A model generated the notes under the pieces. That model was given only the letters and a program-made list of their open reading frames with translations, was not told where the DNA came from and searched no databases. From positions 173,254 to 237,253 of the forward strand of contig NW_026706246.1 in NCBI RefSeq assembly GCF_029867415.1: a stretch of DNA of 64,000 bases. The letters are read 5' to 3'. Positions 31,251-64,000 of the stretch are shown here, piece by piece. Positions within the stretch are counted from its first letter, which is position 1. Every line of letters starts with the position of its first letter. This DNA is from Vicia villosa. Its lineage: Eukaryota; Streptophyta; Magnoliopsida; Fabales; Fabaceae. The translations under genes and the position numbers were made by a program.

Positions 31251-31370
31251 AGTTGGAGACAAAAAGAAAACTAGATGTTTAGAAAAGAATGTAGAATTTC
31301 AAAATTTTTGACACATGTGTCAACACATGTAAGTCATGAATCGCCTTATAGTAGGAAATTTTCTACTATG

Positions 31371-36421: not shown

Positions 36422-37637
36422 TGAAGGATAGAAAAACACTTAGAAAGGGGGGGGGGGTTGAATAAGTGTAGTCTAAAAACTTGAATGATAAAAACAATTT
36501 GCACAGTTATTTTTATCCTGGTTCGTTGTTAACTAAACTACTCCAGTCCACCCCCACGGAGTGATTTACCTCACCTGAGGATTTAATCCACTAATCGCAA
36601 CAGATTACAATGGTTTTCCACTTAGCCCACGACTAAGTCTTCTAGAGTATCCTGATCACAACCTGATCACTCCAGGAACAAATGCTTAGACACAAGCTAA
36701 GACTTTCTTAGAGTATCCTGACCACCATGTGATCACTCTAATTACAACTGCTTAGACACAAGCTAAGACTTCCTAGAGTATCCTGATCACACTTGATCAC
36801 TCTAGTTACTTACAAATTAATGTAATCAATTCTAAGAGTATTACAATGCTTCTGAAAAGCTATAATCACAACATTGATATTTCTCTTAATGTTTAAGCTT
36901 AGTCTCACTAATATATTACAACAGCAATGTAGTGAGCTTTGATGAAGATGAAGTTTGAGAGCTTTGAGTTGAACAGCGTTTCAGCAAGTTTTTCAGAATA
37001 AGTTCGTTCAGAATTGGTAACCTTGCTTCTCATTAGAACTTCATATTTATAGGCACTTGAGAAGATGACCGTTGGGAGCATTTAATGCTTTGCGTATTCC
37101 GTACAGCATTGCATTTAATGTTTCACTCTTTTGTCAACTACCTCGAGCCTTGTTTACGCTGTGTCTACTGACGTTGCCTTTAATAGCTTCTAACGTTCCT
37201 TTTGTCAGTCAGCGTAGCCTGCCATCTTGTACTTGCTTCTGATCTAATGTTTGTGTATACGACGTTTGAATATCATCAGAGTCAAACAGCTTGGTGCAAA
37301 GCATCTTCTTGTCTTCTGACCTTGAAGTGCTTCTGAGCGTGATACCATGAGAACTTCAGTGCTTCTGCTTCTGATCTCAAGTTCTTCTGATGCTTCCATA
37401 GACCCATGTTCTGATTCTGCTTTGACCATCTTCTGATGTCTTGCCAGACCATGTTCTGATGTTGCATGCTGAACCTTCTGAGTCAAAGCTTCTGAGCGCT
37501 GATTTGTGCATACTCTTTATATATTTCCTGAAAGGGAAATTGCAATGTATTAGAGTACCACATTATCTCACACAAAATTCATATCCTTGTTATCATCAAA
37601 ACTAAGAATATTGATCAGAACAAATCTTGTTCTAACA
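36422..37637 (-). repeat. SIRE-type 3' LTR
   Basis: In element orientation the LTR starts TGTTAGAACAAGATTTG and ends TTTTTCTATCCTTCA, so it has TG...CA ends and is 1216 bp long. It is preceded by the purine tract AAAAAGGGGGAGAT. Inside, a ~70-bp unit with GCTTAGACACAAGCTAAGAC and GAGTATCCTGATCAC is repeated about three times (36620-36805). The left host flank is AATAT. No matching duplication exists at the other end. Confidence 0.85.
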
Positions 37638-42100: not shown

Positions 42101-42698
42101 ACTTATGGTTCCAGAGCCAATGATTTTGCCCTTCTGATCTCCTCCAAACTTGACTTCTCCACCTGGTTTAAGCACCAGGTCTTGGAATGTAGACCTTCTT
42201 CCCGTCATGTGTCGCGAGCACCCAGAGTCCAGGTACCATGACATTTTGCTTTTTGTCCTCTTTGCAGCCAAGGATATCTGCAACAGAAATTATCTTCTCC
42301 TTAGGTACCCACAATTTCTTGGGTCCTTTCTTGTTAGTTCTCCTCAAGTTCTGATTGAACTTGGGTTTAGCATAATATTTAACAGGAGGAACAGCATGAT
42401 ATTCTTTAGGATTGTCAGCATGATATTTCTTAGGATGTGTCACATGCTTCTTGGTGTGAACAGTGTTAAAACTCTGTGCATGTGAAGTGAGCCTAATATC
42501 ATGTGCATGGCCATATTTGAACTGATCATACAATGGCTTGTATGTGATCTTCAGATCATCAATAGGTTCAAATTTATGTGAGGTATCACCCTCATAGCCA
42601 AAGCCAAACCTTCTGTTTCCAGAAACACCATATATCATAGAAGCAAGAAGACTTCTACCAATACTTCTAGATAAGAACTTTCTGAAGCTCGAAGTCAT
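39149..42698 (-). pseudogene. SIRE-type pol (protease, integrase, RT, RNase H), broken by stops
   Basis: The protease region holds WYLDSGCSRHM near 42234. The integrase zinc region begins WHRRLGHASL and continues to CQKGK. The integrase core has Asp in HIDLFGP, Asp in RSDHGGEF and Glu in NGVVERKNR. The RT block (40582-39809) includes QMDVKSAFLNG, SLYGLKQAPRAWY and the catalytic YVDD. RNase H pieces are at 39802-39587 and 39442-39149 (FCDNTSAICLSKNP). The frame is kept almost throughout, but nonsense codons interrupt it at 41210 (TAG), 40622 (TAA), about 40586 (TAG), 39809 (TAA), 39587 (TGA) and about 39510 (TAA). A frame change near 42680 separates it from gag. It is inactive as it stands. 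Confidence 0.88.
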
Positions 42699-44094
42699 AT
42701 TCTTTCAGAATATGATTCATGCTAGGAATGGATTTTTCTGTTTCAGAAGGAGATCCACTATCTTTGGATAAATTTAAAACTTTTTCCTTCAGTTCAGAAT
42801 TTTCCAATTCCAGCTTCTTAGTTTCAAATTCAAACTGCTTTTTCAGCTTTTTGTATTTGATACTAAGATGAGCCTTGAGTTTCAGAAGTTCTGTTAAACT
42901 GGAAACTAACTCTTCTCTAGATAGTTCAGAAAATACCTCTTCAGAATCTGATTCTGATGTAGATTCTGATCCATCATCTTCTGTAGCCATCAGCGCGAAG
43001 TTGGCTTGCTCTCCTTCAGAGTCTGATTCTGATTCTGATTCAGAATTATCCCATGTTGCCATAAGACCTTTCTTCTTATGAAACTTCTTCTTGGGATTCT
43101 CCTTCTGAAGTTTTAGACACTCGTTCTTGTAATGTCCAGGCTCATTGCACTCATAGCAGACATCCTTCTTCTTGTCAGATCTTCTGTCACTAGAAGATTC
43201 TCCTTGTTCAAATCTCTTTGAACTTCTGAAGCCTCTGAACTTCCTTTGCTTGCTCTTCCAGAGTTGGTTTACCCTTCTGGAGATCATGGACAGTTCATCT
43301 TCTTCTTCAGATTCTGATTCTTCAGGATCTTCTTCTCTAGCCTGAAAAGCGTTAGTACATTTTTTAACATTTGATTTTAACGCAATAGACTTACCTTTCT
43401 TCTGAGGCTCGTTTGCATCCAGCTCTATTTCATGGCTTCTCAAGGCACTGATAAGCTCTTCCAACGAAACTTCATTCAGATTCTTGGCAATCTTGAATGC
43501 AGTCACCATTGGACCCCATCTTCTGGGTAAGCTTCTGATAATCTTCTTTACATGATCAGCCTTGGTGTAGCCTTTATCCAGAACTCTTAATCCAGCAGTT
43601 AGCGTTTGAAATCTTGAGAACATCTTCTCAATGTTTTCATCATCCTCCATCTTGAAGGCTTCATATTTATGGATTAGAGCAAGAGCTTTAGTCTCCTTGA
43701 CTTGAGCATTTCCCTCATGGGTCATTTTCAATGACTCATATATATCATAGGCCGTTTCCCTGTTAGATATCTTCTCATACTCAGCATGAGAGATAGCATT
43801 CAGCAAAACAGTTCTACATTTATGATGATTCTTGAAAAGCTTCTTCTGATCATCATTCATTTCTTGCCTTGTAAGCCTTACGCCACTACCTTTCACTGGA
43901 TGTTTGTAACCATCCATCAGAAGATCCCATAGTTCACCATCTAGACCAAGAAAGTAACTTTCCAGTTTATCTTTCCAGTATTCAAAGTTTTCACCATCAA
44001 ATACTGGTGGTCTAGTATAACCATTGTTACCATTGTATTGCTCAGCAGAGCCAGATGTAGATGCAGGTGGGTCTGTTGGAATTTCACCAGCCAT
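42667..44094 (-). CDS. SIRE-type gag, open frame
   Basis: 475 codons are open from an ATG at 44094. The N-terminal capsid-like region has FEYWKDKLESYFLG near residue 38. It continues into the UBN2-type block, with KALALIHKYEAFKM and LPRRWGPMVTAF. The nucleocapsid has a CCHC knuckle CYECNEPGHYKNEC. The C-terminal third alternates acidic Ser/Glu/Asp stretches with a predicted coiled coil (KLKKQFEFETKKLELENSEL). Gag packages element RNA into cytoplasmic particles. The start lies one base inside the junction with the Athila-type LTR, so the native leader is lost. The frame overlaps the pol frame by about 30 bp in a different register. Confidence 0.85.
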   Translation of the reverse strand: MAGEIPTDPPASTSGSAEQYNGNNGYTRPPVFDGENFEYWKDKLESYFLGLDGELWDLLMDGYKHPVKGSGVRLTRQEMNDDQKKLFKNHHKCRTVLLNAISHAEYEKISNRETAYDIYESLKMTHEGNAQVKETKALALIHKYEAFKMEDDENIEKMFSRFQTLTAGLRVLDKGYTKADHVKKIIRSLPRRWGPMVTAFKIAKNLNEVSLEELISALRSHEIELDANEPQKKGKSIALKSNVKKCTNAFQAREEDPEESESEEEDELSMISRRVNQLWKSKQRKFRGFRSSKRFEQGESSSDRRSDKKKDVCYECNEPGHYKNECLKLQKENPKKKFHKKKGLMATWDNSESESESDSEGEQANFALMATEDDGSESTSESDSEEVFSELSREELVSSLTELLKLKAHLSIKYKKLKKQFEFETKKLELENSELKEKVLNLSKDSGSPSETEKSIPSMNHILKEYDFELQKVLI

Positions 44095-44095
44095 C

Positions 44096-45345
44096 TGTTG
44101 AAAGAGTATTGTGGTGTACTTTTCGTTATTATCGTATCCACAGGGATTATTGCGATATCACCGCCGTTCTATAGCCTATTTTGTCTTGAGTTAATGTTAT
44201 TTTAAATTTGGGTTTGCAAAAGATCATTCAACACTTTTAGTAGCAAAGAGTAAAGTAATGAAAGTTCTAAGTTAAAGAAAATGTATCAAGATTTGATTTT
44301 ATCGACCTAAATTTGTATGTCTACTTATAAATATACGTATATGAACATGGTAACGATTAACATAATTACGTATCGACGCCTATATCATCTGTGTCCGCAA
44401 TGATATAGTTAGATTTACCGTATTGTTTAACCGACGATTTCTCCATCCTTTAAACAATACAAATAACGTTTTAAAACCGATACTAAGTAAACATCAAACG
44501 CTAAATCCATGTCTGCAATTTATAGTTTGATGGATGATAAAGTTAGATCTAGATACAAATATTGATGTCTCAAACACTTATACCAAAGAAAAAGCTTTAA
44601 TAAACAAACTAAACCATCTATATTGATCATCACTTGTTCATACACATATATTCACAAGAAAAACCTACAAAAGGCTAGGAAGATTACATCTTATCTTGAT
44701 ACAAAAGAGATTTAGCTATCCATGAGAATGGTAGCTTGCTCAAGAAGTAAAGGATGAAGATCAACAAGCATCAAAGGCGATTAATCGACGATCAAGGCTT
44801 TCAATCTTCAATTCTATGTTTGCTACAGTGTATATTGCTCTTGGTTCTCTCTTAAAATATCTCTCTTAAAATATCTCTACCTCTCAAAAGTGATCTGGCC
44901 CATAAACAAATAAACAAAGTTTCGCAGACCGCGCTTAGCGCGGTGCAGCCCGCTAAGCGCGCTATCAATAATTGCTTAAACCGCCCAACCGCGCTAAGCG
45001 GGCTCCAGACCTCGCTTAGCGCGGAACTCTCTGCCAGAACTTCCTTCTTTTCTTCAAAAGCGCGCTTAGCGGGCTCAACCTCGCTTAGCGCGCTACCTCT
45101 TTTTAGCAATCCTTGGCTTTGGTCTTGGAACATCTTCAAAACGCTTTTTCCATGGTCCAAGCTTCCAATTATCTATAAAAACTACAAAATCCAACATAGA
45201 TTGCAAAGATAAGAACTATTCAACGATAATATAAATATAAGAATAAATGTATACTAAATGACAATAAAATACTACTATTAACCACAAAAAGACTTGAGAG
45301 TTACCAAAAATTACCTAAGATATTTACACAAATTGGTAACTAACA
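44096..45345 (-). repeat. Athila-type 3' LTR
   Basis: 1250 bp. In element orientation it begins TGTTAGTTACCAATTTGTG and ends CAATACTCTTTCAACA. It carries six CGCT(A/T)AGCG motifs at 44929-45095. The purine tract AAGTTGGGGAGAGT lies immediately upstream in element sense. Confidence 0.9.
44929..45095. repeat. Cluster of six CGCT(A/T)AGCG near-palindromes (3' LTR)
   Basis: GCGCTTAGCGCGG, CCCGCTAAGCGCGC, CCGCGCTAAGCGGGC, CTCGCTTAGCGCGG, GCGCGCTTAGCGGGC and CTCGCTTAGCGCGC occur within 170 bp. They are GC islands in AT-rich DNA. They alternate in orientation, so they can pair as hairpins with one another. Confidence 0.9.
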
Positions 45346-46732
45346 ACTCTCCCCAACTTAAACCTTTGTTTGTCCTCAAACAAAACAAATACACCAAGAG
45401 ATCACAAGCTAAGACAAAAACAATTGGGTGGTTCAAATTCCATAAGCACACAAGTAACATCTTACCTTTACTAAAATAACACCATGATACAGATACTAAT
45501 ACTAAATACATATTTGATGTCTAAAATTCCTAAAACAAAATAAGTTCAAAATTGAATCACAACCTATACACTTCTCTAGTAAGAGACAAAATTGAGGTCC
45601 TAACACTCACACAACAATGTCGCCAACATCCAGAATTAATTATGCATTCATCTACACAACATTTATATAGAAAGCGTAAAAGCAAGAATCACAAAGACTT
45701 TAGGGTTGAAACTTGGGTTGGTTAACAAGGAAGTGTCATTTCTCAAGGCCATTGAAACAAAAGGGGTCAATTCCTAAGAGAGCATTCAAATCATGATTAT
45801 ATCCACACATCCTTATCAACCGATCACACAATTTTATTGCTCAAGAGTTCATCTTTTTATTTTAAAGGAACTAGCTATATACAAAGCTCTTTTCTTTTCC
45901 TTTTTCTTTTTCTTTTTCTTTTTCTCTCTTGAGCAAAATTTTATTTTCTTCTACACACCAATACAACCAAGATCAAAATTTTATTCTCCCCAACTTGAAT
46001 ATTACCACCACATAATCACGAATGCTCCCTATTCTAAGGCGAAAAGGAATCCATCCTAACCACATTTCATGGTACTTTTCAAGGTTAAGAGAAAGTCATC
46101 AAGATTCAAATCAAAAATCGGCAATTATAAGGCATGACATGATACCGATTGAATCTTGGCAAAATGGCTCAAAGTGGTTAGTAAATACTCACACACTCAC
46201 CGGGTAGGTTATATTTGGAAGAGAAGTTATACTCGTAATGCGAAACAAAATGCTTTGATCACTTTCATGCTTTACACAATTAAATAAAACCGCAAGATTA
46301 AACATAATAAACACGAGTTAAACGCACATTGTTGGTAACCACAAAATAATATATATATGTACAATGGAAAGGCTCCTCACACTAGTTTTAGAGCTAAAAT
46401 GATTCATTATTGAACTATATTTGTTAAATAAAATATGACATCTAATTTGTACAATTAGAAGTATCTACTTCATGTTATATTAAAGAAACGATAAAAATGT
46501 ACCTTGTACGTACTAATTTCACATTATATCATCACCGCCCCAATTGAATGTAAAACTTGCTCCCTCAAGGAAACACTTTCACAAGGACAATCAAAAATTA
46601 AAAGAAACAATTGCATATGTTCATAAAAATAAAAGCAATTAAACTAAAAACTTAATAATTTAAAACAAACACCAAAAGGTGTCACAATATCCAAAAAGGC
46701 ATAGCAATGCCTAAGGTTCAAAATACCTCATC
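45346..46732 (-). other. Athila 3' non-coding region
   Basis: Between the env-position ORF and the 3' LTR. It contains the purine tract next to the LTR and a long polypyrimidine run (CTTTTTCTTTTTCTTTTTCT at about 45898-45925), which is polypurine in element sense. No ORF is supported. Confidence 0.6.
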
Positions 46733-48010
46733 CTATACAAGGATGGAACAAAACATAACAAAGCTAATAAAATAAAAATAACTAGTACTAAATATACTTA
46801 TAGCACTAACATAAAATATAAAACTACTCATCCCAACTTGATGATCTTCTTCCACATTCTCATCCTCGCCACCTTCCTCCTCCTCAGGAAATGGACTGAC
46901 CTCAGGCCAATCAGCATAATCCACCAAATCTTGGCGAGAACTCCACGGATGAGCCACATGGGGCTCCATCATCTGCAACCTCAGCTGAGACATAGAATCA
47001 TGCAAAAACATGAATGCTCTCTGATGCGCCATATGAAATGCCAAGTTCTCCTCTCTATCAGGATTACTACGGCGGCGAGCAGGGCGAGCAGCAGCAACAG
47101 GAACAGCAGTCAACCTGGATAAACAATAACGCTCAATAAAAATGTCATCAATAAAAGTGTCAATAGACACAAGCCCCTCAGAAGGAATCTGCACTCTTGC
47201 TTTCTTGCACAGATTCATGATCAAACCAGGAAAAATCAGCTTGCATGGAGCACGATCACCATGCCGAGTTCCACTCAAAGCAACCCTCTTCAGCTCATTC
47301 GCAATAATGCGAGTAATATCAATCGGCTCATGCTCAATCATACGAGCAACCAGTGCAGCAGACTCAGCAGGTAAAGAGGAAGTGTGACTCCTAGGCCTTA
47401 AATTATGAAGAACCACAGACATGAGAATCTGAGCATTAGTAGACAACGACTTCCTAGAGAATTTCTGGGGTTGTTGTGAAGGATTAAGATCATAAGACTG
47501 CCCCCTCGCACACAAGACCTCCCTCAGATGCTCCCAATCAAAATTACCCCTTGCCAATTGCACATGATACCCACACAGCTCACCATCCTCAAAAGGTAAT
47601 TGAGTTCCAAGAAACTCACGGATAGCTTGACGAGAAAAATCAATTTCCTTACCACGCACCCAAGTTTTGAACTTAAAGGGAACACCTTCAACCGGAAATT
47701 CCTCATTTGGAACAGCATTAGCATAGAACTCTCTTACAATCTCCAAATGAAACTTAGGTGCAGACTCACAAAGTCTAAGCCAACCGTACTCCTCAATGGT
47801 GCGATGACACCACCCATAGGTTCCCTCAGGATTGATCCTCACAATTCGCTCTGGCCACCATGTCCTAACCTCTAACTTCTTGTACCTCTCCTCTTGGACA
47901 TGACTCTTGAACCGGTTCTGATTAAACGGAATAGCCCTAGGTGCTTGAGAAGAACTGCCACCTTCGGTTCCGGTCTTTCTTTTCTTAGAGCCTAGGAATT
48001 TCGGTCCCAT
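46733..48010 (-). CDS. Athila-associated ORF3, plant transposon-protein family
   Basis: An intact 425-codon ORF lies downstream of pol, in the position of the env-like ORF of Athila elements. It starts MGPKFLGSKKRKTG. The central region has YGWLRLCESAPKFHLEIVREFYAN, shortened here, i.e. the 'LVREFYAN' phrase. It then has REFLGTQLPF and FPGLIMNLCKKA. These phrases are characteristic of the plant 'putative transposon protein' family (Transposase_32 type). A linker rich in Arg and Ala and an acidic stretch (EEEEGGEDENVEEDHQ) lead to a strongly hydrophobic C-terminal tail of about 30 residues that could be a membrane segment. The function is unknown. Unlike gag and pol in the same element, it has no stops or shifts. 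Confidence 0.7.
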   Translation of the reverse strand: MGPKFLGSKKRKTGTEGGSSSQAPRAIPFNQNRFKSHVQEERYKKLEVRTWWPERIVRINPEGTYGWCHRTIEEYGWLRLCESAPKFHLEIVREFYANAVPNEEFPVEGVPFKFKTWVRGKEIDFSRQAIREFLGTQLPFEDGELCGYHVQLARGNFDWEHLREVLCARGQSYDLNPSQQPQKFSRKSLSTNAQILMSVVLHNLRPRSHTSSLPAESAALVARMIEHEPIDITRIIANELKRVALSGTRHGDRAPCKLIFPGLIMNLCKKARVQIPSEGLVSIDTFIDDIFIERYCLSRLTAVPVAAARPARRRSNPDREENLAFHMAHQRAFMFLHDSMSQLRLQMMEPHVAHPWSSRQDLVDYADWPEVSPFPEEEEGGEDENVEEDHQVGMSSFIFYVSAISIFSTSYFYFISFVMFCSILV

Positions 48011-49218
48011 CTAAAATGATTAAGGAAATAGCAACACAAAAACAAATATGTTAACACAATACATAACAAAAATAAACAGCCCTAGTAAAAATTAAAGCAC
48101 AAGATCACTCCCCCTGCATCAAACAAAAACAGGGAGAAGAGGGGATTTTTCTGAAATCCCCAGACCGCGCTAAGCGCGCCTACCGCGCTAAGCGGGCTCT
48201 GCGATTTGCAGAAAAAATCCCCTGCGAACCAGGGTTTCATCCATGCATTTCCAGCACCCAAAATCAATTCTAAATAAGCACAAGGCACTGGAAATCATAT
48301 TAAATTACTAAGATTTCAAAACAACAACCCTAACCACCTTCTATTCCTAAAATTAAATCTAAACCTTAATATATATAAACAAGCATAAGAGAAAAGAAAT
48401 AATAAGAAGAAATAACAAGAAGAAGAAAAAGATTACCTTGGAGATGATGAAGAAAGAGCAAGGACTTGATTAATTTGCACAAGGAAAAGGAAAGCAAAGA
48501 AAGAAAGAAGTTTAGGAGAAGAAATTGGGAGAAATGAGGCAACAAAACCTCAAAACCCTACTTCCCTCACCCAAAATTCGTGCTGGGCCGGGTCAAAGAT
48601 TAAGGGCCCAAAAAAAAATGAAAAATATTTTTTTTTTCTTCTGAAAACTGACCCGCGCTAAGCGGGCTTAGGAGCGCGCTAAGCGCGCAACTCTCTGGAA
48701 CTAAGGGTTAAAAAATCTTCAAAGCGCGCTAAGCGGGCTTAACAGAACACAGAAAATTTTTCTTTCTACCAGCATGCGAAACTTTACCGGTAGACTGATT
48801 TTGGCTCGACCAGAACGCAAAAAACATAAACGGTAAAAAACACATAAAACAAGCTGAATATATACAAATTGGGGTGCCTCCCAATAAGCGCTTTGTTTAA
48901 CGTCGGTCAGCTCGACGGTCAAAGGCAATCAAGGATCACCAAACGATAAAACACAAGTTTCACGATTAAAATCGCATCCTCGATAAACCTTCAACCTCTG
49001 ACCATTAACTACCCATTCTTGCTTTGATTTTTGGTCCTCTATCACAATAGCCCCATGGCTTCTAACTTCTTTGACCAAAAACGGTCCGGACCATTTAGAC
49101 TTCAACTTTCCCGGAAAAAGTCTTAACCGGGAATTGAAAAGTAAAACTAATTGCCCACCTTAAAGTCCTTCATTCTAACCTTACTATCATGATAGAATTT
49201 GGTCTTTTCCTTGTAAAT
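48011..49218 (-). other. Athila pol-ORF3 spacer with more CGCT(A/T)AGCG motifs
   Basis: Non-coding spacer. The GC-rich motif occurs at 48162-48200 (two copies), 48652-48689 (two) and 48723-48740 (one). Near 48870-48910, GGGGTGCCTCCCAATAAGCG is a recognisable retroelement phrase. Small frames here that read Ala-Leu-Ser-Ala-Val are translations of the motif. Confidence 0.6.
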
Positions 49219-50769
49219 CTAATTAGACTTATAGGCATGCAATCTCATCTCTTCCAACTCATTAAGTTGGATTTTTCTTCTCTCTCCACACAACTTGTGG
49301 TCAAAATTCAAAATCTTCAAAGCCCAATATGCCTTATGCTCTAGTTCTACGGGAAGGTGGCAGCTTTTACCATACACCATTTGGAATGGTGTAAGACCGA
49401 TCGGTGCTTTGAAAGCGGTCCGATACGCCCACAAGGTTTCATCTAACTTCATTGACCAATCCTTCCTAGAGCTAGACACAGTTTTCTCAAGAATTCTCTT
49501 AATTTCTCTATTGGTCCTCTCAACTTGCCCATTAGTTTGTGGATGATATGGAGTAGCCACCTTGTGCTTTACTCCATATTGCTCCAACACTTTCTCAAGC
49601 GGGGCATTACAAAAATGAGATCCACCATCACTAATTAATACTCTTGGCGAGCCAAACCGCGAAAATATATTTTTCTTCAAAAACTTTATCACGGTCTTAC
49701 CATCCGCTTTGGGTGAAGCAATCGCTTCCACCCACTTAGACACGTAATCCACAGCTACCAAGATGTATTCATTTGACATAGAGGAAGGTAAGGGTCCAAC
49801 AAAATCAATGCCCCAACAATCGAATACCTCAACTTCTACAATACTTTGGAGGGGCATTTCCTCTCTTTTCCCTATTCCACCAGTTCGTTGACAACTGTCG
49901 CATGAGGCAACATGGTGGTAAGCATCTTTGAACAAAGTAGGCCACCAAAATCCCGATTGAAGGACTTTTGTGGCCGTACGCAAACCATTAAAATGACCAC
50001 CATAAGGCGAATTGTGGCAATGCCACAAAATGCTTTTTGCCTCCTCATCCGCGACACATCTTCTCAAAAGATTGTCACTACTCAACTTAAACAAGTGAGG
50101 ATCGTCCCAAACATAAAAATTAGCATCGTTTAAAAACTTTTTTCTTTGATTCCAAGTTAGATCCTCCGGTATCCAGCCAGATGCTTTGTGATTAGCCATA
50201 TCTGCGAACCAGGGTCTAACTTCTTGTACCATGTACAGTTTTTCATCTGGGAATTCTTCCCTCACCTCTTTTTCATTGTTTGTCACCTCGGTATTCACTA
50301 ACCGAGACAAATGATCCGCAATCAAATTTTCTGTACCTTTCTTATCTTTCACTTCAAGATCAAATTCTTGAAGCAAAAGAATCCACCGAATAAGCCTCTG
50401 TTTTGAATCAGGCTTGGTGAGAAGATATTTGATTGCGGCATGATCAGTATAACACACCACTTTAGAACCAATGAGGTAAGAGCAAAACTTTTCCAATGCA
50501 AATACAATTGCGAGCAATTCTTTTTCGGTAGTGGCATAGTTAACCTGTGCCTCATTTAAAACTTTGCTCGCATAATGAATAGCATGGAATTGTTTGTTCT
50601 TCCTTTGGCCTAAGATTGCACCAACCGCATAGTCACTCGCATCGCACATGAGTTCAAACTCAAGCGACCAATTAGGAGCGACAATTATGGGTGTGGTGGT
50701 CAAATTTGCTTTAAGTTCTAGGAAAGCTTGTGGCCAAGAACAATCCCATCCGTCACCATGAAAGTGCAT
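49219..50769 (-). pseudogene. Athila pol: RNase H and integrase part
   Basis: A long frame of 516 codons starts inside the broken RT region. RNase H motifs are [36 protein letters not shown] and DHLSRL. The integrase zinc finger has [10 protein letters not shown] and CDSCQR. The core has Asp in GIDFVGP, Asp in LISDGGSHF and Glu in GQVERTNRE with the canonical 35-residue spacing. The C-terminal GPY-like part ends near [13 protein letters not shown]. This section has no internal stop, but it is separated from RT by a frameshift and a deletion. Confidence 0.88.
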
Positions 50770-52559
50770 TTCTCCCAGTTGAGAACCAAATTTGTTTCAA
50801 TGCATCTCTCCATTACCACATCAAGGTTCTTTAAGCACAAGTCGAATGACGACCCGTACACAGAAAAATCATCCATGAACACCTCAATGCTTTTCTCGAT
50901 CAAATCTGAGAAGATAGCTTGCATGCACCTTTGAAATGTTGCAGGAGCATTACATAGTCCAAATGGCATTCTTCGGTATGCGAAAACGCCAAAAGGACAT
51001 GTAAAAGCAGTTTTCTCGTGGTCCGCCGGATTCACTGATATTTGATTGTATCCCGAATAACCATCCAAGAAACAATAGAAATTTCTTCCGGCTAACCTCT
51101 CTAACATTTGATCCATAAAAGGTAATGGAAAGTGATATTTTCTTGTTGCTTGGTTCAACCTCCTATAATCAATACACATACGCCACCTGGTCACCGCTCT
51201 CGAAGGAATCAACTCGTTCTTCTCATTTCTCACAACTGTCAATCCACCCTTCTTAGGAACCACATGCACCGGGCTCACCCATTCGCTATCGGAGATGGGA
51301 TAAATCATCCCCGCCTCTAATAACTTCACAACCTCTTTTCTAACAACTTCTTTCATGGTTGGATTCAATCGCCTTTGAGGTTGTGCCACGGGCCGAAAAT
51401 CATCTTCTAACATAATCTTATGCATACAATAGGCCGGACTAATACCCTTCAAGTCGGATAAAACCCATCCTATTGCTTCTTGATTCTTTGTCAACACTTC
51501 CTTCAATCTATGCTCTTCCTTGTTAGACAAACCACTATTAATGATAACCGGCTTAGTAGAATTGTCACCGAGAAACACGTATTTCAAGTGAGACGGTAAC
51601 ACATTCAACTCCACCTTTTGCTCTTCAACTTTAGGTTCATCCTTCAACTCTTCAATTTGAGTTTCAAATGGATTCATCTCCTCACAAGCCTCTAAATTTC
51701 TCAAGCGATCTTCAATTTCCTTCTCTTGATCTTTGGTGAGAACTTCGAGAGCTTCCATTAAAGTCTTCTCAAGAGGATTTGACAAGTGCATTTGATTCTC
51801 CACTTTCATAATAGCTCTTTCGGTAGCATCGATTCTAAAACAATCATCCTCATCATTAGGATGCTTGATGGCTTCAAAGAGATCAAGACATAATTCTTCA
51901 TCTTGGTACCTTAATTTCATTAAGCCATCATCAATATCTATCATCATTCGGGCCGTCTTCATAAAAGGCCTTCCTAAGATCAATGGAATCTCAGGATCTT
52001 CTTCCATGTCTATGACAATAAAATCAACAGGATACCAAAATTTGTCAACCTTGACAAGCAAGTCTTCCGCAACTCCATGAGGATGAGCTGTGGATTTATC
52101 TGCTAATGATAACGTCATTCTTGTCGGCTTCAAATCGTTGATTCCTAATCTTCTCACCATAGACAATGGGATCAAATTAATGATAGAACCGGTATCTACC
52201 AAACCTTTGCCTATGTGAACATTTCCAATAGACACCGGTAAGGTTACCCGCCCAGGATCATTTGATTTTATCGGAGTAGTGCGTTGAATTAACGCATTAC
52301 AACAAGAGCTCACCGTTACTACCTCCGGATCCAAGAATCTTCTCTTCTTAGTGATGATGTCTTTGATGAATTTTGCATACATCGGCATTTGCTCTAATGC
52401 TTCGGAAAAAGGAACATTAATTTGCAACTTGCTAAAAATATCCAAGAACCGAGCATAGTGCTTTGCATCTTCTTTCTTTGACGGACCTGGAGGGTAAGGT
52501 AATTTCTTCACTTGTATAGAATCATCCACCTTCTTCTTTCCCTTTTCACTCACACTCAA
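50718..52559 (-). pseudogene. Athila pol: protease and reverse transcriptase part
   Basis: The 613-codon frame follows a single in-frame TGA at 52566-52568 that separates it from the gag tail. The protease has LVDTGSIINLIP (catalytic Asp present) and LILGRPFM. RT motifs run in order: WVSPVHVVPKKGG, WRMCIDYRRLN, FLDGYSGYNQI, PFGLCNAPATFQRCM and the catalytic FMDD. The frame ends at LGHKLS. In relatives about 60-70 further residues connect this point to RNase H. Here they are missing and the register shifts, so the RT connection domain is deleted. The element cannot be autonomous as it stands. Confidence 0.88.
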
Positions 52560-52565
52560 TTTTTT

Positions 52566-54283
52566 TCACTCTTTTTCTACAACTTTCTCAAGAGTTTCTT
52601 TTTCCACTAATTCTTTCTCTTTCTCATTTTCAACTAAATCACCCTCAACATTTTTTTCTACTTCAATCACCCTATCTTTTTCACTCTCAACAATTTCCTC
52701 CTCAACTATTTCTCCTACACCCATATCAATATTTCTACCGCTACGAGTTAGAATTGACTTACAATGCTCACGAGGATTTTCTTGTGTAGTAGCCGGAAAA
52801 AGGACCTTTGTTTTGATCGGCAAGTTGCTTTGACAATTGCCCCGACTTGAGTTTCAAGGTTCTTTATTGCGGCATCCGTACTCTTTTGGCTTGCAATTTG
52901 CAATTGCATGAATTGGCTAAGAGTGTCCTCGATTGAAAGCTTTGTTTGTTGAGGTTGTTGATTGTAACCGCCTTGATAAGGATTTTGACGATTCGATGGG
53001 CCCGCTTCCGGCCTCCATCCTTGTTGATAACCTTGATTACCTCTTTGCTGGTAACCTTGGTTATTGTTGTAAGGTTGTTGTTGTTGTTGTTGTCTCCCAC
53101 CATAAACTTGATTAGGATTAGACACATAATTCACCTCTTCACCCGGTGGAGGACAAAAACCTGTTTGATGGTCACCCCTACACAACTCACAACACATCAC
53201 ATGTTGATTTTTAGAAGGGCTCCCATTTATCTCTTTGATTTTGTTGAGGGAGTTTTGACATTTGTTGAGTGAGCAATTCTACTTGTTGTGTCAATAACTT
53301 GTTTTGAGCAAGTATTGCATCACTAGTATTCAATTCAAGAACTCGCGGTTTTCTTTGCAATGCACTACGGTTGTGTTGCCCTTGATGATCATTCAAAGCC
53401 ATCCTATCAATGATAGCAATTGCTTCAGCAGCTGTTTTTGACATCAACGAACCACCCGCGGGTAGCATCTAAAAGAGTTTTTGGTTGAGGTTGGAGTCCA
53501 TTCCTAAAGATATGGATTTGAGACAATTCATCAAACCCATGACCTTTGCACTTTCTAACCATGGACATGAACCTCTCCCATGCTTCATTGAGAGATTCAT
53601 TCGAACCTTGAGAGAACACCGCAATAGAAGTTTTTCGCTTCCATGAACCTATTGTGAGGAAAGAACCGATCCAAGAACTTCTCTTCTAACTCGTTCCAAT
53701 TTGTCATGACATTATTTGGTTGATCAAGGTACCATTCCTTAGCTTTTCCAATTAAGGAAAGAGGAAAAAGTCTCCTGAACACCTGTTCTTCTTGGTCTTC
53801 CGGGAGCACCAATTGTTTCGGCGATCTCGATAGAACTTTGTTAGATGAGTAAATGGATCCTCGTGATCTGCCCCTGTGAACGGATTTTGGTATAATAATT
53901 GAAGTAACCCCGTCTTCATCTCGGAGTTTCTTCCATTGGCCTGATCACGAGCAAATTGTGCATTGAGTCGAGGGCTATTAACACAAGGGCCCTCGAACTG
54001 GATCATTAGGGATCTCTCCTGCCATTTCTCCCTCAACTAAGTTTTCAACCAGAGTTGAAGAAGAAGATGCCTCTTGTTGTTGTCTTCTTTCCCTAGCTAG
54101 TTGTCTCCTCCTACGAGTTTTGCTATTATCTCTACGAGCAGTCCTCTCAATCTCAGGATCAAAAAGGAGTTGATCTGCAGGTACACGTCCCTCGCATAAA
54201 CTGTTATCTGAAAAACTAACCAAGCAAATTAACAAACACAAGGAAAATAAATTTAGAAACAAGATATTAATTATAAGACTCAA
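52566..54283 (-). pseudogene. Athila gag, frameshifted
   Basis: Pieces in at least five registers lie in order. They are an Arg-rich N-terminal region (RRRRQLARERRQQQE), a capsid block (PFTGADHEDPFTHLTKFYR, FPLSLIGKAKEWYLDQP, NEAWERFMSMVRKC), a linker with LLTQQVELLTQQM, a zinc-knuckle-like CELCRGDHQTGFC, a Gln/Asn/Tyr-rich stretch (53050-53130) and a Glu/Val/Lys-rich tail. Small indels break it repeatedly, so no full gag is made from this copy. Confidence 0.82.
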
Positions 54284-54323
54284 TTCAAAACAAACTATTG
54301 CAATGCTTGCAATATCTAAACAA

Positions 54324-54344
54324 CAATCCCCGGCAACGGCGCCA
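54324..54344 (-). other. Athila primer-binding site
   Basis: On the minus strand TGGCGCCGTTGCCGGGGATT starts three bases after the 5' LTR end (CAACA-AAA). This phrase is the usual primer-binding region of Athila-type elements. Confidence 0.85.
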
Positions 54345-54347
54345 TTT

Positions 54348-55583
54348 TGTTGAAAGAGTATTGTGGTGTACTTTTCGTTATTATCGTATCCACAGGGATT
54401 ATTACGATATCACCGCCGTTCTATAGCCTATTTTGTCTTGAGTTAATGTTACTTTAGTTTTAGGTTTGCAAAAGATCATTCAATTTTAGTAGCAAAGAGT
54501 AAATTAATGAAAGTTCTAAGTTAAAGAAAATGTATCAAGATTCGATTTCATCGACCTAAGTTTGTATGTTTCCTTATAAATAGATGCTTATGAACTTGCT
54601 AACGATCAATATAATTACGTATCGACACCTATATCGTCCGTGTCCGCAACGATATAGTCAGATTTACCGTATTGTTTAACCGACGATTTCTCCACCGTTT
54701 AAACAATACAAATAACGTTTTAAAACCGATACTTAGTAAACATCAAACTCTAAATCCCTGTCTGCAACTTATAGTTTGAAAGATGATGAGCTAGGTCTAG
54801 ATACAAACATTGATGTCTCAAACATTTATACCAAAGAAAAAGCTTTAATAAACAAACTAAACCATCTATATTGATCATCACTTGTTCATACACATATATT
54901 CACAAGAAAAACATACAAAAGGCTAGGAAGATTACATCTTATCTTGATACAAAAGGGGTTTAGCTATCCATGAGAATGGTAGCTTGCATAAGAAGGAAAG
55001 GATGAAGATCAACAAGCATCAAAGGCGATTAATCGACGATCAAGGCTTTCAATCTTCAATTCTATGTTTGCTACAGTGTATATTGCTCTTGGTTCTCTCT
55101 TAAAAATATCTCTCTCTCTCAAAAGTGATCTGGCCCATAAACAAATAAACAAAGTTTCGCAGACCGCGCTTAGCGCGGTGCAGCCCGCTAAGCGCGCTAT
55201 CAATAATTGCTTAAACCGCCCAACCGCGCTAAGCGGGCTCCAGACCTCGCTTAGCGCGGAACTCTCTGCCAGAACTTCCTTCTTTTCTCCAAAAGCGCGC
55301 TTAGCGGGCTCAACCTCGCTTAGCGCGCTACCTCTTTTCAGCAATCCTTGGCTTTGGTCTTGGAACATCTTCAAAACGCTTATTCCATGGTCCAAGCTTC
55401 CAATTATCTATAAAAACTACAAAATCCAACATAGATTGCAAAGATAAGAACTATTCAACGATAATATAAATATAAAGAATAAATGTATACTAAATGACAA
55501 TAAAATACTACTATTAACCACAAAAAAGACTTGAGAGTTACCAAAAAATTACCTAAGATATTTACACAAATTGGTAACTAACA
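54348..55583 (-). repeat. Athila-type 5' LTR
   Basis: 1236 bp. It has the same TG...CA ends as 44096-45345, with six CGCT(A/T)AGCG motifs at 55164-55330. It differs from the other LTR by scattered substitutions and a few short indels. Confidence 0.9.
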
Positions 55584-55878
55584 GGATACTCTAAGAAAGT
55601 CTTAGCTTGTGTCTAAGCATTTGTTCCTGGAGTGATCAGGTTGTGATCAGGATACTCTAGAAGACTTAGTTGCGGACTAAGTGGAAAACCATTGTAATCC
55701 GTGCGATTAGTGGATTAAATCCTCAGTTGAGGTAAATCATCTCTGCGGGGGTGGACTGGAGTAGTTTAGTTAACAACGAACCAGGATAAAAATAACTGTG
55801 CAATTTATTTTTATCTGTCAAGTTTTTAAAGCTACACTTATTCAAACCCCCCCTTTCTAAGTGTTTTTCTATCCTTCA
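55584..55878 (+). repeat. Truncated SIRE LTR in inverted orientation
   Basis: This 295-bp piece is the reverse complement of 36422-36718, the last part of the SIRE LTR. It ends TTTTTCTATCCTTCA at 55878. It abuts the Athila 5' LTR on the left and the array element on the right. No primer-binding site follows, so it is the outer end of a plus-oriented SIRE element or solo LTR. Confidence 0.85.
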
Positions 55879-57412
55879 GTGACAAGATGGTATTGGAAAG
55901 AGGTGAAGTTAGCGGTTACGCTTGTTCTTGGAAAACGGACTTGTGTGTTGGTATCGCGCAGGACGTCAGCGTCAGAGATGAGTGAATTGAAGAAGCAATT
56001 CGAAGATTTGTTGAGGAGAAATTTTATGATCAAGTATGTCAATTGAAGAGTTTGAGAGATATCGTAAGGATTGTCGCAGCATGACGTTGATGTTTGTATT
56101 TTGGATAACGTTGGAGGATTGTATCTTGTGCTTCGAGTGTCGGATTGACGTACCGTTTGAGCCTACGAAGAGGTGAGACTATACTTTACCTTATAGAAGT
56201 GTTATGGTTATAGTAGAAGTGAAGCCTGTTGAATATAAACGGTTATTGCCGCAAATTGTCTGAAACAAAGTTAAGCCGAGCATGTTGTTGTGTAAGTAGT
56301 CATGTGTAAGCTGTTGACGAAGGAACAACAATTAAGTGAAGTATTGTTGTAAGCCTTACTGTAGGATTATTGATAAGTGATTGAAACTGTGGTTGAAGCT
56401 GTCAAAGTTGTTGAAACGTTATGGATCGCGAGTAAGAGTCGGAAATGCGAAGAGATTAGTATGATTTCAATGATAAGAAGTGTTGATATTTGTGTAAAGA
56501 AATTTTGTCCTAATGTATCGTCAGAGGTGTTTTAGTGAGTAGCTGCAAGACGTCGGTGTTAGCATGTTAATATGGTTTTGCAAGTTGTTGAAGTATGGTA
56601 CTTTTGGTGACGTAAGTACAATTGCTAAAGGAACACTATTACAGTTGGTAATGATGGTTATACTCCATTATGATTGTCGGCTGTCTATTGACAAATTGAG
56701 GACTTGATCACCCTTAATCCCTTGTTGATAGTAGACAAAATTGTATTGGATGTTATAGACTTATCTTATTGTCTTAATGGTGCGTGAGGTGATGGATGCT
56801 GAAGAAAGTCTGAAACTTAGTTGAAGCTTGTGAATAGTGTAAATTGATAGAAACTCTAATAAAGGACAGTGGATTAAGATGGATGATCAGAGTCGCGCAG
56901 TTGAAGCATGATGTGCTAGAGTGTTGAGTTTTCTTGTGAATAGTGCTGATTGTAATAGAATGTTCTTGTAAGTTGTTGGTCAATGATGAGTTATATAGTT
57001 ATTAGTCGAGTTATGTTATCAGATTGGAATTATGATATTTTGTCGATGTTGCAGTAATGTTGTCGTTGGTGCTTTGTTAGTGAACGACACCTGAGTATGG
57101 AAAATAAGAATTGTATATGTGTATCGGTGGTCGAGTATGTTGTTGCGATGATGAAGCAATGTTGTATCGTCAAATATGAGCGAGTGAAGATTGTTGTTGC
57201 ATCGTAAGATGTTGTTCCGAGATATTGCGGAAATGGTTAGCAAGTTAGTAATGAATATGTTACAAGGATAATTGAGAGATATACCGGAAAAGTAATAGTC
57301 GGAGTATTGTCAAGCGTAACTTGAGAATAAGAAAGTCGGATGAGGACGCGATGTTAGGGATGGTTGTGTTGGGCGAATTTTCGAGGACGAAAATATTCTA
57401 AGTGGGGAGAGT
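55879..57412 (+). mobile_element. Internal region of a non-autonomous large-LTR element (3' part)
   Basis: 55879-56205 is colinear with 61354-61680 in the array, with no net indel. 56206-57412 is present only once in this window. It ends with CGAGGACGAAAATATTCTA and the purine tract AAGTGGGGAGAG directly before the LTR. No gag, RT or integrase motif is recognised, so the element looks non-autonomous. The GACGAAAAT-purine tract-TGTAA layout is typical of Tekay/Del-type gypsy elements. Confidence 0.7.
57400..57411 (+). other. Polypurine tract
   Basis: AAGTGGGGAGAG lies immediately 5' of the LTR start TGTAACGCCCC. It is the expected plus-strand priming site. Confidence 0.75.
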
Positions 57413-60400
57413 TGTAACGCCCCAAATTTAATTAATTGGTTAATTAAATTATTAAAGGATTTAAATATTGGATTTAGTCGAATTTGGATGGTCGGTATTA
57501 TTTTAAGAGGCGTATTTGGATTTATTAAGTTAAAGTTGGATTTTAGTCGGATAGTCGGAAGAATAATATTAAGAATAATATTAATTTATTGAGATGTTTA
57601 TTGAAATTCTCGCATTTTGGGACGACTTAGTCAGTATTAGTTCGGGATAGCGGATTGATATTTATTAGAAGATTTTAATATTTTTAGTATTAAAAATATT
57701 AATGTGTTAATATTTAGCATTTTGAGAATTTTCCGAGTAATTAAGATTAGACCGGAAAATATGAGGCATTGAGTAATAAATCGGTATATTAAAATAATCG
57801 GATATTATTTTAATGGAATAAAAGTGGAAGTATTATTTTTACATTGAGTGTAGAAATAATATTGGGCTTAGTTGTGGTATCTTTAAGTATTAAAGGATTT
57901 ATTTTATTAGGCCCATTATTGAAATAGAGGCTAAGTGGTGGTGGTCTCATTGTGTTATTTGGAAAAGATAGAAACATAGAAGAGAAAAAGGGAAACCGAG
58001 GAAGACAAAGAAAAAAAAGGAAGAAAAGGGGTTAGGGTTGTGAAGAGGAGAAAAGGGAGACCCAAAGTGTTGCTCTAAAGTGTTATTTTTCTCCAATTTT
58101 CCATTGAATCTTCTTAGAGCTGCACTCAATCTAAGGTAAGGGGGGATTCTTACTACCTAAATGGGAATATGATGAATTTTATGTGGGTTTAGGGTATAAA
58201 TTTGTCATTGTGTTGTGTTAATTTTGTTTTATGTCACTGTTTGGAAATAGAAATTGAGAATATTACGGTGCTGTGCATATAAGAAACGAAAAAGATGGGT
58301 GAGATGTGAGCTTATTATTTTTCTTTTATATTCCATTGTGTGTTATTCACATATGTCTTATGGTTTTCCAATGAACTCTGTTCATTCCACGCTCCCACTG
58401 CGATTCAATTACCCACAGTTGGGTTACTTTTTTGGTATACCACCACTTTGTTATATAAATGATAATGTAGATTGAATGTGAGATATGACTTGTGAGAATA
58501 GGAAATCACTTATTGGGTAGACATGTTTTTCTTGTCATTTTTTTTATATACATGTTCTATTTGTCATTCTAGAGAAAAGAACCATACTTATGAAATGTAG
58601 TATAATTAATTAATAAGATAAGTGTCTAACAGTAGCAATTATAGAACAAATGTATTCTAAACAGTCCCGTTTCACTGAAATAGTCGGATTAAGCGGGTAT
58701 AATTAGTTGTCCGGAATTTGATGAAAATTTACGTGGTAGCTAAGTTTAATTAGTAGGTTAATATAGTGGTGATGTTTTGTTGAAATTGTGCTATTTTACG
58801 AACCGACCGAAATTGTGTGGATTTGAGTATACTTTATATTAAATGTTGGTTTTGGAGTAGAAAGTGGAATATTAAGTTGGAAAATTAAAAATAGAATATT
58901 GAATTAAATTAATATAATATGATTATTAATTGGTTGATTTAATTAAATAGTAGAATTAATTTCAATAATTCTAATTAATTGGAAAATACTTAGACTTGGA
59001 TAAATTATTCGGTTTATCGGTAAATTACGATATCTTGAGAATTTGACCGTAATTGTGATTTGGTTGAATATTTATGTTGTGATTAATATATTGCTATGCC
59101 AATGATGTTATCTTGATAAATAATATTATGTCAAATTGAATTAGTTGATAATTGGAAGTTGATTCGGTTTACTTGATAAATTAGCATGTTGAGATTATCT
59201 TACAAATTGATCGAAAATTGTGGTTTTGATTTGGATGGCTTTGTTAATATGTGAAATTGAGTAATTGTGCCGATGTGCCGAAACATGATGATAATTGTAA
59301 TAATCTTGATGATATGTGAATTGTATATTTGTGACGATTTTGTTAATACACGAAGTTGTATGTTTTTTTGTGATATGCCGAAGCATGAGGATATATATGT
59401 AATGACTTGTTTATATGCGAAGTTGTATAATTACGATGATGTGTTGAAACATGACGATGTTTTGTGATGATTTGTAATATGTGATGTTGTATATATTTGT
59501 GATGATGATTTTGTGACTAAGTGAAGATGAAATATTATGGTGACGTGAATTACCGCGTATAGATGGTAATTGATTGTGATATAGGCTTATGCCTTGTGAC
59601 GATATGTGATTGTGATGAGTATGTTGTATTGTCTTGTTTGTCGAGTCACATTTCATATGCATACTCTGTGACGGCCTGGATTGGCAAAACTAGTGACGAA
59701 GGCTTATGCCTTGTGCCTCTGAATTGGGCAATTGGTGACGGGGGCTGAAGCTCCGATTGGTACCACATGCATATGCACGAGTCGTGTCTCCATGATGTAT
59801 TTTGTGATGTATATAATGCGATGTTTGGTGATTTGACTTGCGACATTTATGATGCGATGCCCGTGAATACATGTATGACTTATATGATGATATTGATGCT
59901 TATATGTTGATTTGTGAAGATGTTTATATGACGATATAGATGCTTATACGTTGACTTATTGAAAATGTTTATATATTGATTATGACACTTAAATGTTGAC
60001 TTGTTGAAGATACTTATATGTTGACTTGTCGAAGATGCCTATATGATGACATTGATGATTATATGTTGACTTATTGAAGATGCTTATATGTTGAGTTGTC
60101 TGAAGATGCATATATGATGACTGGTTGAATATGTTTATATGTTGATATTATGACTATTCATTGATGATGCTATTGGTGTTGATTACGTTGATGTTGTGCA
60201 AAGCGGTGATTCATTTATATTCTTTACCTGATATATGATTTATCATGATCCTATTTATATAGTTTGATATCTCACCCTTGCTGCTGATGTTTCCCCTACC
60301 ATGGGAAATGGGCAGGTACTCAAGTATAGCTATGGAATTTTGTTGCTTCATCGAGTCATGTTGGTGTGTCGCTCTGATACGTAGCACTCGGGGGGTTGTT

Positions 60401-60673
60401 TATATTGTTGTTTCTATGTTGTTAATGTTTTAGTTGTTGTTATTATAACTGTTGAATCCAAGTTAAATAATATGAAGTACTTGTTATACTTCTAAGTTGT
60501 TTGAGTTGAATAAAGCTGATAGTTGACTGTTAGTCGAATGCTATGTATCATTGTGAATGAAACACAAGTTGAAGTTTTGAGTTGATATGTGATACTCCAA
60601 TGTGTTGTTTGAGATTTTTAAATACTCTGATATTTTCCGCAATATAATTTCGGGTAGAATTTGGGGTGTTACA
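57413..60673 (+). repeat. 3.26-kb LTR, Tekay-like
   Basis: It starts TGTAACGCCCCAAATTTAAT and ends AATTTGGGGTGTTACA, with matching inverted ends. Inside are a purine-rich leader-like block (about 57950-58060) with a possible donor near 58136, and degenerate ~25-45 bp repeats with TTATATGTTGACTTGTTGAAG at 59875-60165. A CTCACCC box and GTGTCGCTCTGATACGTA lie near the 3' end. It is flanked by a purine tract on the left and a PBS on the right, so it joins two element copies head to tail. Confidence 0.8.
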
Positions 60674-61680
60674 TTAGTGGTATCAGAGCAGGTCGGTCCG
60701 TCCGGCCAAGTTGTCGAGTCAGTTGAGTTGTGCGACAGTTGAATGTTGTCAGTGTTTTATTCCTTAGTACGCGACATGTGTGTGAAACACTGTTAGTACT
60801 TATTTGTTTTGTTGCAGGAAGTAGTTTGAGCGAAGTGGGGGAGAAGCTTTGCTCCTCGGATATGTTTCAGTTGTAAGTTGTTGGTGCAATGTATGCTTAA
60901 GGAGACAGTGTAAGTATTGTTGGAGCTTGTTGACATGGATTCAAGGTTTTGGTTATTTAACAAGCTCGGAGCGTCTGTAAAAGGAGAATGATCAGGAATT
61001 GTTGATGTTTACTCTTCGAAGGATGAGGAGCAGTGTAGCAGTTATTGATCTGCAAGTATGGTGCAAATTCCTGATGTTTCGGGAGGTAACCCTTAAGTAC
61101 CAAGAATAAATCCTAGAAGATGGAATTTAGAATGTTTTTGTGTTCAGCATTGTGGATGAACTGTGAAGTTGTCAGTGCAATAAGTCTTGTGAAAGGTACC
61201 GGTGTTGGAAAAGTGTTAGAATGATGAAGTTGCGGTGGACTTTATGTTAGACTCGCATAAGTGATTGTCGTATATCCGATTTGAAGCGTCGGAAAGATAA
61301 CGAGGTGAATTTTAATACAAGAATGGATGCCGCAACTGTAAGTAGAATTATTTGTGACAAGATGGTGTTGGAAAGAGGTGAAGTTAGCGGTTACGCTTGT
61401 TCTTGGAAAACGGACTTGTGTGTTGGTATCGCGCAGGACGTCAGCGTCAGAGATGAGTGAATTGAAGAAGCAATTCGAAGATTTGTTGAGGAGAAATTTT
61501 ATGATCAAGTATGTCAATTGAAGAGTTTGAGAGATATCGTAAGGATTGTCGCAGCATGACGTTGATGTTTGTATTTTGGATAACGTTAGAGGATTGTATC
61601 TTGTGCTTCGAGTGTCGGATTGACGTACCGTTTGAGCCTACGAAGAGGTGAGACTATACTTTACCTTATAGAAGTGTTAT
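59759..61680 (+). repeat. Array unit A (~1922 bp)
   Basis: It starts GGTACCACATGCATATGC in the LTR and passes through the LTR end (60673), the PBS and about 1 kb of leader and internal DNA. It ends TTATAGAAGTGTTAT at 61680, where the next unit begins. A 5'-most frame MDAATVSRIICDKM... (about 61324-61458) is short and of unknown meaning. Confidence 0.9.
60678..60689 (+). other. Primer-binding site (initiator Met tRNA type)
   Basis: TGGTATCAGAGC lies four bases after the LTR end. It is repeated at about 62600 in the next array unit. Confidence 0.85.
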
Positions 61681-63603
61681 GGTACCACATGCATATGCAC
61701 GAGTCGTGTCTCATGATGTGTTTTGTGATGTATATAATGCGATGTTTGGTGATTTGACTTGCGACATTTATGATGCGATGCCCGTGAAATACATGTATGA
61801 CTTATATGATGATATTGATGCTTATATGTTGATTTGTGAAGATGTTTATATGACGATATAGATGCTTATACGTTGACTTATTGAAAATGTTTATATATTG
61901 ATTATGACGCTTAAATGTTGACTTGTTGAAGATACTTATATGTTGACTTGTCGAAGATGCCTATATGATGACATTGATGATTATATGTTGACTTATTGAA
62001 GATGCTTATATGTTGAGTTGTCTGAAGATGCATATATGATGACTGGTTGAATATGTTTATATGTTGATATTATGACTATTCATTGATGATGCTATTGGTG
62101 TTGATTACGTTGATGTTGTGCAAAGCGGTGATTCATTTATATTCTTTACCTGATATATGATTTATCATGATCCTATTTATATAGTTTGATATCTCACCCT
62201 TGCTGCTGATGTTTCCCCTACCATGGGAAATGGGCAGGTACTCAAGTATAGCTATGGAATTTTGTTGCTTCATCGAGTCATGTTGGTGTGTCGCTCTGAT
62301 ACGTAGCACTCGGGGGGTTGTTTATATTGTTGTTTCTATGTTGTTAATGTTTTAGTTGTTGTTATTATAACTGTTGAATCCAAGTTAAATAATATGAAGT
62401 ACTTGTTATACTTCTAAGTTGTTTGAGTTGAATAAAGCTGATAGTTGACTGTTAGTCGAATGCTATGTATCATTGTGAATGAAACACAAGTTGAAGTTTT
62501 GAGTTGATATGTGATACTCCAATGTGTTGTTTGAAATTTTTAAATACTCTGATATTTTCCGCAATATAATTTCGGGTAGAATTTGGGGTGTTACATTAGT
62601 GGTATCAGAGCAGGTCGGTCCGTCCGGCCAAGTTGTCGAGTCAGTTGAGTTGTGCGACAGTTGAATGTTGTCAGTGTTTTATTCCTTAGTACGCGACATG
62701 TGTGTGAAACACTGTTAGTACTTATTTGTTTTGTTGCAGGAAGTAGTTTGAGCAAAGTGGGGGAGAAGCTTTGCTCCTCGGATATGTTTCAGTTGTAAGT
62801 TGTTGGTGCAATGTATGCTTAAGGAGACAGTGTAAGTATTGTTGGAGCTTGTTGACATGGATTCAAGGTTTTGGTTATTTAACAAGCTCAGAGCGTCTGT
62901 AAAAGGAGAATGATCAGGAATTGTTGATGTTTACTCTTCGAAGGATGAGGGAGCAGTGTAGCAGTTATTGATCTGCAAGTATGGTGCAAATTCCTGATGT
63001 TTCGGGAGGGTAACCCTTAAGTACCAAGAATAAATCCTGGAAGATGGAATTTAGAAAGTTTTTGTGTTCAGCATTGTGGATGAACTGTGAAGTTGTCAGT
63101 GCAATAAGTCTTGTGAAAGGTACCGGTGTTGGAAAAGTGTTAGAATGATGAAGTTGCGGTGGACTTTATGTTAGACTCGCATAAGTGATTGTCGTATATC
63201 GATTTGAAGCGTCGGAAAGATAACGAGGTGAATTTTAATACAAGAATGGATGCCGCAACTGTAAGTAGAATTATTTGTGACAAGATGGTGTTGGAAAGAG
63301 GTGAAGTTAGCGGTTACGCTTGTTCTTGGAAAACGGACTTGTGTGTTGGTATCGCGCAGGACGTCAGCGTCAGAGATGAGTGAATTGAAGAAGCAATTCG
63401 AAGATTTATTGAGGAGAAATTTTATGATCAAGTATGTCAATTGAAGAGTTTGAGAGATATCGTAAGGATTGTCGCAGCATGACGTTGATGTTTGTATTTT
63501 GGATAACGTTAGAGGATTGTATCTTGTGCTTCGAGTGTCGGATTGACGTACCGTTTGAGCCTACGAAGAGGTGAGACTATACTTTACCTTATAGAAGTGT
63601 TAT
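61681..63603 (+). repeat. Array unit B (~1923 bp)
   Basis: A head-to-tail copy of unit A. By eye it differs at only a few positions, such as an extra A near 61788 and extra G's near 62950 and 63009, so the units are very young. Its PBS-like site is at about 62600-62611. Confidence 0.92.
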
Positions 63604-64000
63604 GGTACCACATGCATATGCACGAGTCGTGTCTCATGATGTATTTTGTGATGTATATAATGCGATGTTTGGTGATTTGACTTGCGACATTTATGATGCG
63701 ATGCCCGTGAATTCATGTATGACTTATATGATGATATTGATGCTTATATGTTGATTTGTGAAGATGTTTATATGACGATATAGATGCTTATACGTTGACT
63801 AATTGAAAATGTTTATATATTGATTATGACGCTTAAATGTTGACTTGTTGAAGATACTTATATGTTGACTTGTCGAAGATGCCTATATGATGACATTGAT
63901 GATTATATGTTGACTTATTGAAGATGCTTATATGTTGAGTTGTCTGAAGATGCATATATGATGACTGGTTGAATATGTTTATATGTTGATATTATGACTA
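63604..64000 (+). repeat. Array unit C, cut by window edge
   Basis: The first 397 bp of a third copy, again starting GGTACCACATGCATATGC. The array continues beyond the window. Confidence 0.92.

Follow-up and report, generated by a model that had tools for sequence, protein, structure and literature searches.

The closest described counterparts of the locus presented here are the maize tandem repeats CRM1TR and CRM4TR. In the passages of Sharma et al. (PMC3648361) that deal with their structure, LTR-UTR segments of centromeric CRM elements are rejoined to the LTR in the layout LTR-UTR~LTR, which is proposed by these authors as the seed of both repeats; the CRM4TR monomers are 1369-1391 nt long and contain about 13 subrepeats of ~18 nt, and the full monomers extracted number 187 for CRM1TR and 39 for CRM4TR. 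The Sobo satellite of wild potato has a 4.7-kb monomer with similarity to the LTRs of gypsy elements, as summarized in passages of PMC3648361 and PMC5895790, and its amplification is called recent in the title of PMC1451160. In legumes, satellites of Lathyrus are derived from Ogre 3'UTR repeats in the cited part of PMC7004042, and the same is given for PisTR-A of Pisum in that of PMC9659126. Furthermore, tandem retrotransposons in which one LTR is shared, with a period equal to LTR plus internal region, are treated in the relevant section of PMC12628747.

We analysed a window of 64,000 nucleotides of Vicia villosa DNA (contig NW_026706246.1, forward strand), to which all coordinates refer. An earlier note, made from the letters alone, had described at its right end a young tandem array built from an LTR end, a primer-binding site (PBS) and a leader, joined straight back to the LTR. 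The three unit starts GGTACCACATGCATATGC lie at 59759, 61681 and 63604, where that note had placed them, and these are the only sites of this sequence on the + strand of the window. Unit 1 (59759..61680, + strand, 1922 bp) consists of the last 915 bp of the LTR and 1007 bp of internal DNA, the leader, which had been put at about 1 kb. Unit 2 (61681..63603, +, 1923 bp) differs from it by 8 substitutions and 5 single-base indels, and unit 3 (63604..64000, +) is cut by the window end after its first 397 bp, thus 2.2 units are visible and the right end of the array lies beyond the window. With unit 1 as BLAST query, the match to 61681-63603 has 99.3% identity and 5 gap positions, and that to 63604-64000 has 99.0% identity and 1 gap position. 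In a self-comparison by 200-base steps the identity at offset 1922 was 0.99-1.0 over ~60000 to 61000; the match shifted to offset 1923 (~61000-61800) and then returned to 1922, due to the single-base indels. Units 1 and 2 are identical without interruption over at most 625 bp. A chance or low-complexity match is ruled out by 1.9 kb at 99.3% identity. The left boundary of the duplication is abrupt: leftward of the start units 1 and 2 share 1 base, and units 2 and 3 share 195. No copying order is visible among the three units, since they are equally far apart, with 4 differences in every pair over the first 397 bp.

The differences between the units bear on the question whether a single LTR-leader copy was falsely tiled, or its copies miscounted or mispolished, during the assembly. 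The five indels by which units 1 and 2 differ each involve one base within a short run, and errors of this kind commonly persist in long-read assemblies; room must therefore be left for polishing error in the details of the unit differences. An artefact as the source of the array itself is nevertheless quite improbable, since 8 substitutions over 1.9 kb also separate units 1 and 2, unit 3 carries two private substitutions, and the leader~LTR junction, which is unexpected in a normal element, is present twice. As a side observation, 7 of the 8 substitutions between units 1 and 2 (59759-63603) are A/G on the + strand and none is C/T, an excess that may be due to chance given the G-rich, C-poor composition of this strand (25% G, 12% C).

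The first unit is continuous with a complete LTR at 57413..60673 (+), 3261 bp long and of the form TGTAACGCCCC...GGGGTGTTACA, with TGTAACGCCCCA as its start and GGGGTGTTACA as its end. Directly 5' of it stands the purine-rich tract 57397-57412 (within TCTAAGTGGGGAGAGT), and its end is directly followed by TTAG and then by TGGTATCAGAGC, which was located by sequence search at 60678..60689 (+) in unit 1, 4 nt past the LTR end, and again at 62600-62611. We take the purine-rich tract to be the polypurine tract (PPT) and TGGTATCAGAGC to be the PBS, presumably of the class complementary to the initiator tRNA-Met; no tRNA gene was found in the window. With these presumed roles of the motifs, a TG...CA LTR stands between PPT and PBS, as in an LTR retrotransposon. 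The label gypsy-type given to the parent in the earlier note is likewise an assumption based on the LTR-end and PBS motifs. Plain duplication of the LTR is ruled out because every full unit contains the PBS and the leader. The LTR part of the units also includes degenerate 25/45/70-bp subrepeats (59880..60145, +; again at 61802-62067 and 63724-63989), the 25-bp rows counting 10.6 copies in unit 1 as well as in unit 2; expansion of these subrepeats was rejected as the origin of the array, since they lie inside each unit.

The leader (...GTGTTATGGTTATAG) and the LTR (...CCGATTGGTACCACA) are joined as ...GTGTTATGGTACCACA, where the two parts overlap by the 4-bp microhomology TGGT at 61680..61683 (+) between units 1 and 2, and a second time at 63603-63606. 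In 200,000 random joins of internal positions with LTR positions, microhomology of at least 4 bp occurred in 2.7%, therefore a microhomology-type join is weakly favoured; it should be emphasized that this is a test of a single event at ~0.03, as one junction type is seen twice. The composition of the units, this junction and the 99.3% identity bear out the young array that the earlier note had described.

What had been overlooked there is the context of the LTR. The stretch 55879..57412 (+), which ends in the purine-rich tract, is the 3' part of the internal region of an upstream element, and its first 327 bp (55879-56205) are the same as unit positions 1596-1922 at 99.4%. Since the PPT and internal DNA repeating the leader precede the LTR, one and the same LTR is the 3' LTR of the upstream part and the 5' LTR of the array. 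The two leader copies are spaced by 5475 bp, that is LTR 3261 plus internal 2214, from which an internal region of ~2.2 kb can be inferred on the basis of two partial copies. At the level of whole elements the locus is thus a tandem in which one LTR is shared, with a period of 5475 bp, and the 1.9-kb period is superimposed on it. This LTR is the one complete LTR of the parent in the window (n=1), and its 5-bp flanks differ, as expected because the LTR is shared. The upstream leader copy departs from both full units at two sites, unit positions 1609 and 1830; this argues against a simple local origin, and the units may have been donated by a different copy of the element.

The studied element is cut at 55878/55879, but the two ~295-bp copies, at 36422 and 55878, face in opposite directions and have unlike flanks, which does not support a clean nested insertion at this point. 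It was also observed that this inverted pair (36422-36720 and 55582-55878, ~300 bp, 94% identity, different flanks) brackets a Copia-type coding region at 39809-44094 (-).

Taken together, we consider recent head-to-tail amplification of an LTR-leader segment, probably from a non-autonomous plant LTR retrotransposon, at an LTR common to the upstream part, as the best reading of the locus, with a probability of about 0.8. What is observed directly is how the units are composed, that the LTR is shared, how leader and LTR are joined, and that divergence is low. A microhomology-type join would have fused the leader to the LTR, resulting either in LTR-leader~LTR or in a 1.9-kb circle, and extra units would have been added by homologous exchange between copies or from the circle. 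Such an array could possibly be the seed of a satellite; with 2.2 units in view, the macrosatellite proposed in the earlier note would be no more than a possibility. The alternative that it belongs to an established high-copy satellite of the genome, and is not a nascent local array, would agree with its continuation past the window edge, and large arrays of this kind do exist, the maize CRM4TR locus being given as ~169 kb in a passage of PMC3648361; we regard it as unlikely, as the array is continuous with a full LTR and its units are only 0.7% apart.

How a 3' LTR came to stand at the left of the array is not explained by the single-element drawing of Sharma et al. alone; to obtain this arrangement, an LTR shared between elements, nesting or the insertion of a circle has to be added. 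Within the recent-amplification reading two routes can be considered. In the first one, to which we would give slightly less than even odds, unequal exchange between LTRs produced a shared-LTR tandem of two element copies, a deletion brought the leader to the next LTR, and unequal exchange or gene conversion followed, which is the route of Sharma et al. with nested or adjacent elements. The 5475-bp element-level period and the microhomology at the leader~LTR junction are in accordance with it; furthermore, it follows the published model for CRM1TR and CRM4TR in the corresponding passages of PMC3648361, and LTR-LTR exchange is reviewed in the cited part of PMC12628747. On the other hand, two or more rearrangements are required, and no second copy of the first 2.3 kb of the LTR or of the internal part 56209-57413 is present further downstream in the window. 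In the second route, which we put forward more tentatively and find rather doubtful, LTR end and leader formed an extrachromosomal circle of 1.9 kb, or its rolling-circle concatemer, which recombined by homology into a 3' LTR already in place. One step would then account for a complete first LTR preceded by the purine-rich tract and internal DNA, and circles derived from satellites are known from plants, Vicia and Pisum among them, as documented in the cited part of PMC2543021; however, these documented plant circles derive from existing satellites.

Concerning the age of the amplification, substitution rates of 1.3e-8 and 6.5e-9 per site per year are in use for such estimates. With 8 substitutions over ~1920 sites they correspond to ~0.16-0.32 My, a value that would be a minimum if the units exchange sequence and an overestimate if residual sequence error contributes to the differences.

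The coding content of the parent was examined in its internal parts. The Pfam scan covered the 10 sense-strand open pieces of at least 45 aa, none of which was matched, and a protein search with one sense piece found no relative; the longest sense open frame is 69 codons. On the antisense strand there are 17 open pieces, of which the longest has 131 codons. Within the scope of these 10 sense pieces, the internal region appears to be without recognised gag-pol, and judged from this one locus, the parent is probably non-autonomous. LARD elements are characterized by kb-long LTRs and a kb-scale internal region without coding capacity, and are conserved as a family; at this single locus the values are an LTR of 3261 bp, an internal region of 2214 bp by spacing, and longest frames of 69 sense and 131 antisense codons. 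The leader piece 61342-61518 seemed to us to resemble the start of a gypsy reverse transcriptase. A relic pol is not claimed there, because the searches failed to support it: it matched no Pfam family (0 families), the PDB sequences gave two unrelated matches with E 2 or more, comparison with a retrotransposon ORF of the window gave E 0.47, and the protein search returned no candidate.

By its structure, the Vicia villosa layout belongs to the CRM1TR/CRM4TR kind: each monomer is taken from the LTR-UTR region of a single parent, with the UTR joined back to the LTR. The statement of the earlier note that this is not a described repeat may hold for the sequence, but not for the kind, which is described for maize in the cited passages of PMC3648361. 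There are several differences. The maize parents are centromeric CRM elements, whereas the parent here is apparently non-autonomous; the maize arrays are large, while 2.2 units are seen in the window; the first LTR is here a 3' LTR. Additionally, a 4-bp direct repeat is present at the junction, in contrast to the CRM1B and CRM4B consensus, for which the corresponding passage of Sharma et al. (PMC3648361) reports no detected junction direct repeat and proposes sequential deletions. Sobo, as far as the sources cited above describe it, is similar as a recently amplified long-monomer satellite with LTR similarity, but its 4.7-kb monomer adds satellite and other genomic DNA to the LTR, and it extends over ~360 kb. 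The Ogre-derived satellites of Lathyrus and Pisum also originate from parts of LTR retrotransposons in legumes; in the cited parts of the reports, however, they expand short tandem repeats that pre-existed downstream of gag-pol, whereas here a new 1.9-kb segment spans the LTR/leader boundary. The shared-LTR tandem retrotransposons in the cited section of PMC12628747 have the same kind of period with one LTR shared, but here a second, shorter period is superimposed. Among the literature matches listed (titles, abstract openings and selected passages) no legume LTR-leader satellite was found, which is not a proof of absence, and DNA patterns of the unit had 0 matches in viral and prokaryote contigs, as expected for a plant repeat and hence uninformative.

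New satellite DNA can begin by such head-to-tail copying, which is a known way. In the published cases, as far as the cited passages describe them, the arrays are already large, whereas here the array is still connected to a complete donor-type LTR, the upstream part and the first junction, thus the order of events should become readable once the right border is known. In Vicia faba many satellites of 0.7-2.0 kb are without similarity to other genomic sequences according to the authors, in the cited part of PMC5895790, and one way in which satellites like these could conceivably arise is from a 1.9-kb LTR-leader unit; this is meant as a suggestion only. That the locus is a living birthplace of a long-monomer satellite of the Fabeae type, in which the leader~LTR junction of a non-autonomous element would feed an expanding array by both homologous exchange and circle formation, and the two-level tandem (5.5 kb and 1.9 kb) would link shared-LTR tandems to satellites, is a speculative extension that we hold to be improbable.

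Other repeats were observed in the same window. A probable LTR element on the - strand occupies 44090-55583, with ~1.25-kb LTRs at 44090-45345 and 54341-55583 that are 94.5% alike, and the long ORFs between them look retrotransposon-like by eye; between the end of its right LTR and the left break of the studied element lie 295 bp, and inside this LTR (55140-55340) repeated CGCGCTTAGCGCG/CTAAGCGCG-like motifs were noticed by eye. For a Copia-type gag at 42667-44094 (-), the highest-ranking relative with a name comes from Vicia villosa, with 92% identity over 83% of the query, among the best 120 of 230 relatives (7996 candidates scored; 28 matches higher). Finally, a 124-bp tandem repeat with 2.9 copies is located at 31366-31721 and contains shorter 21-bp repeats.
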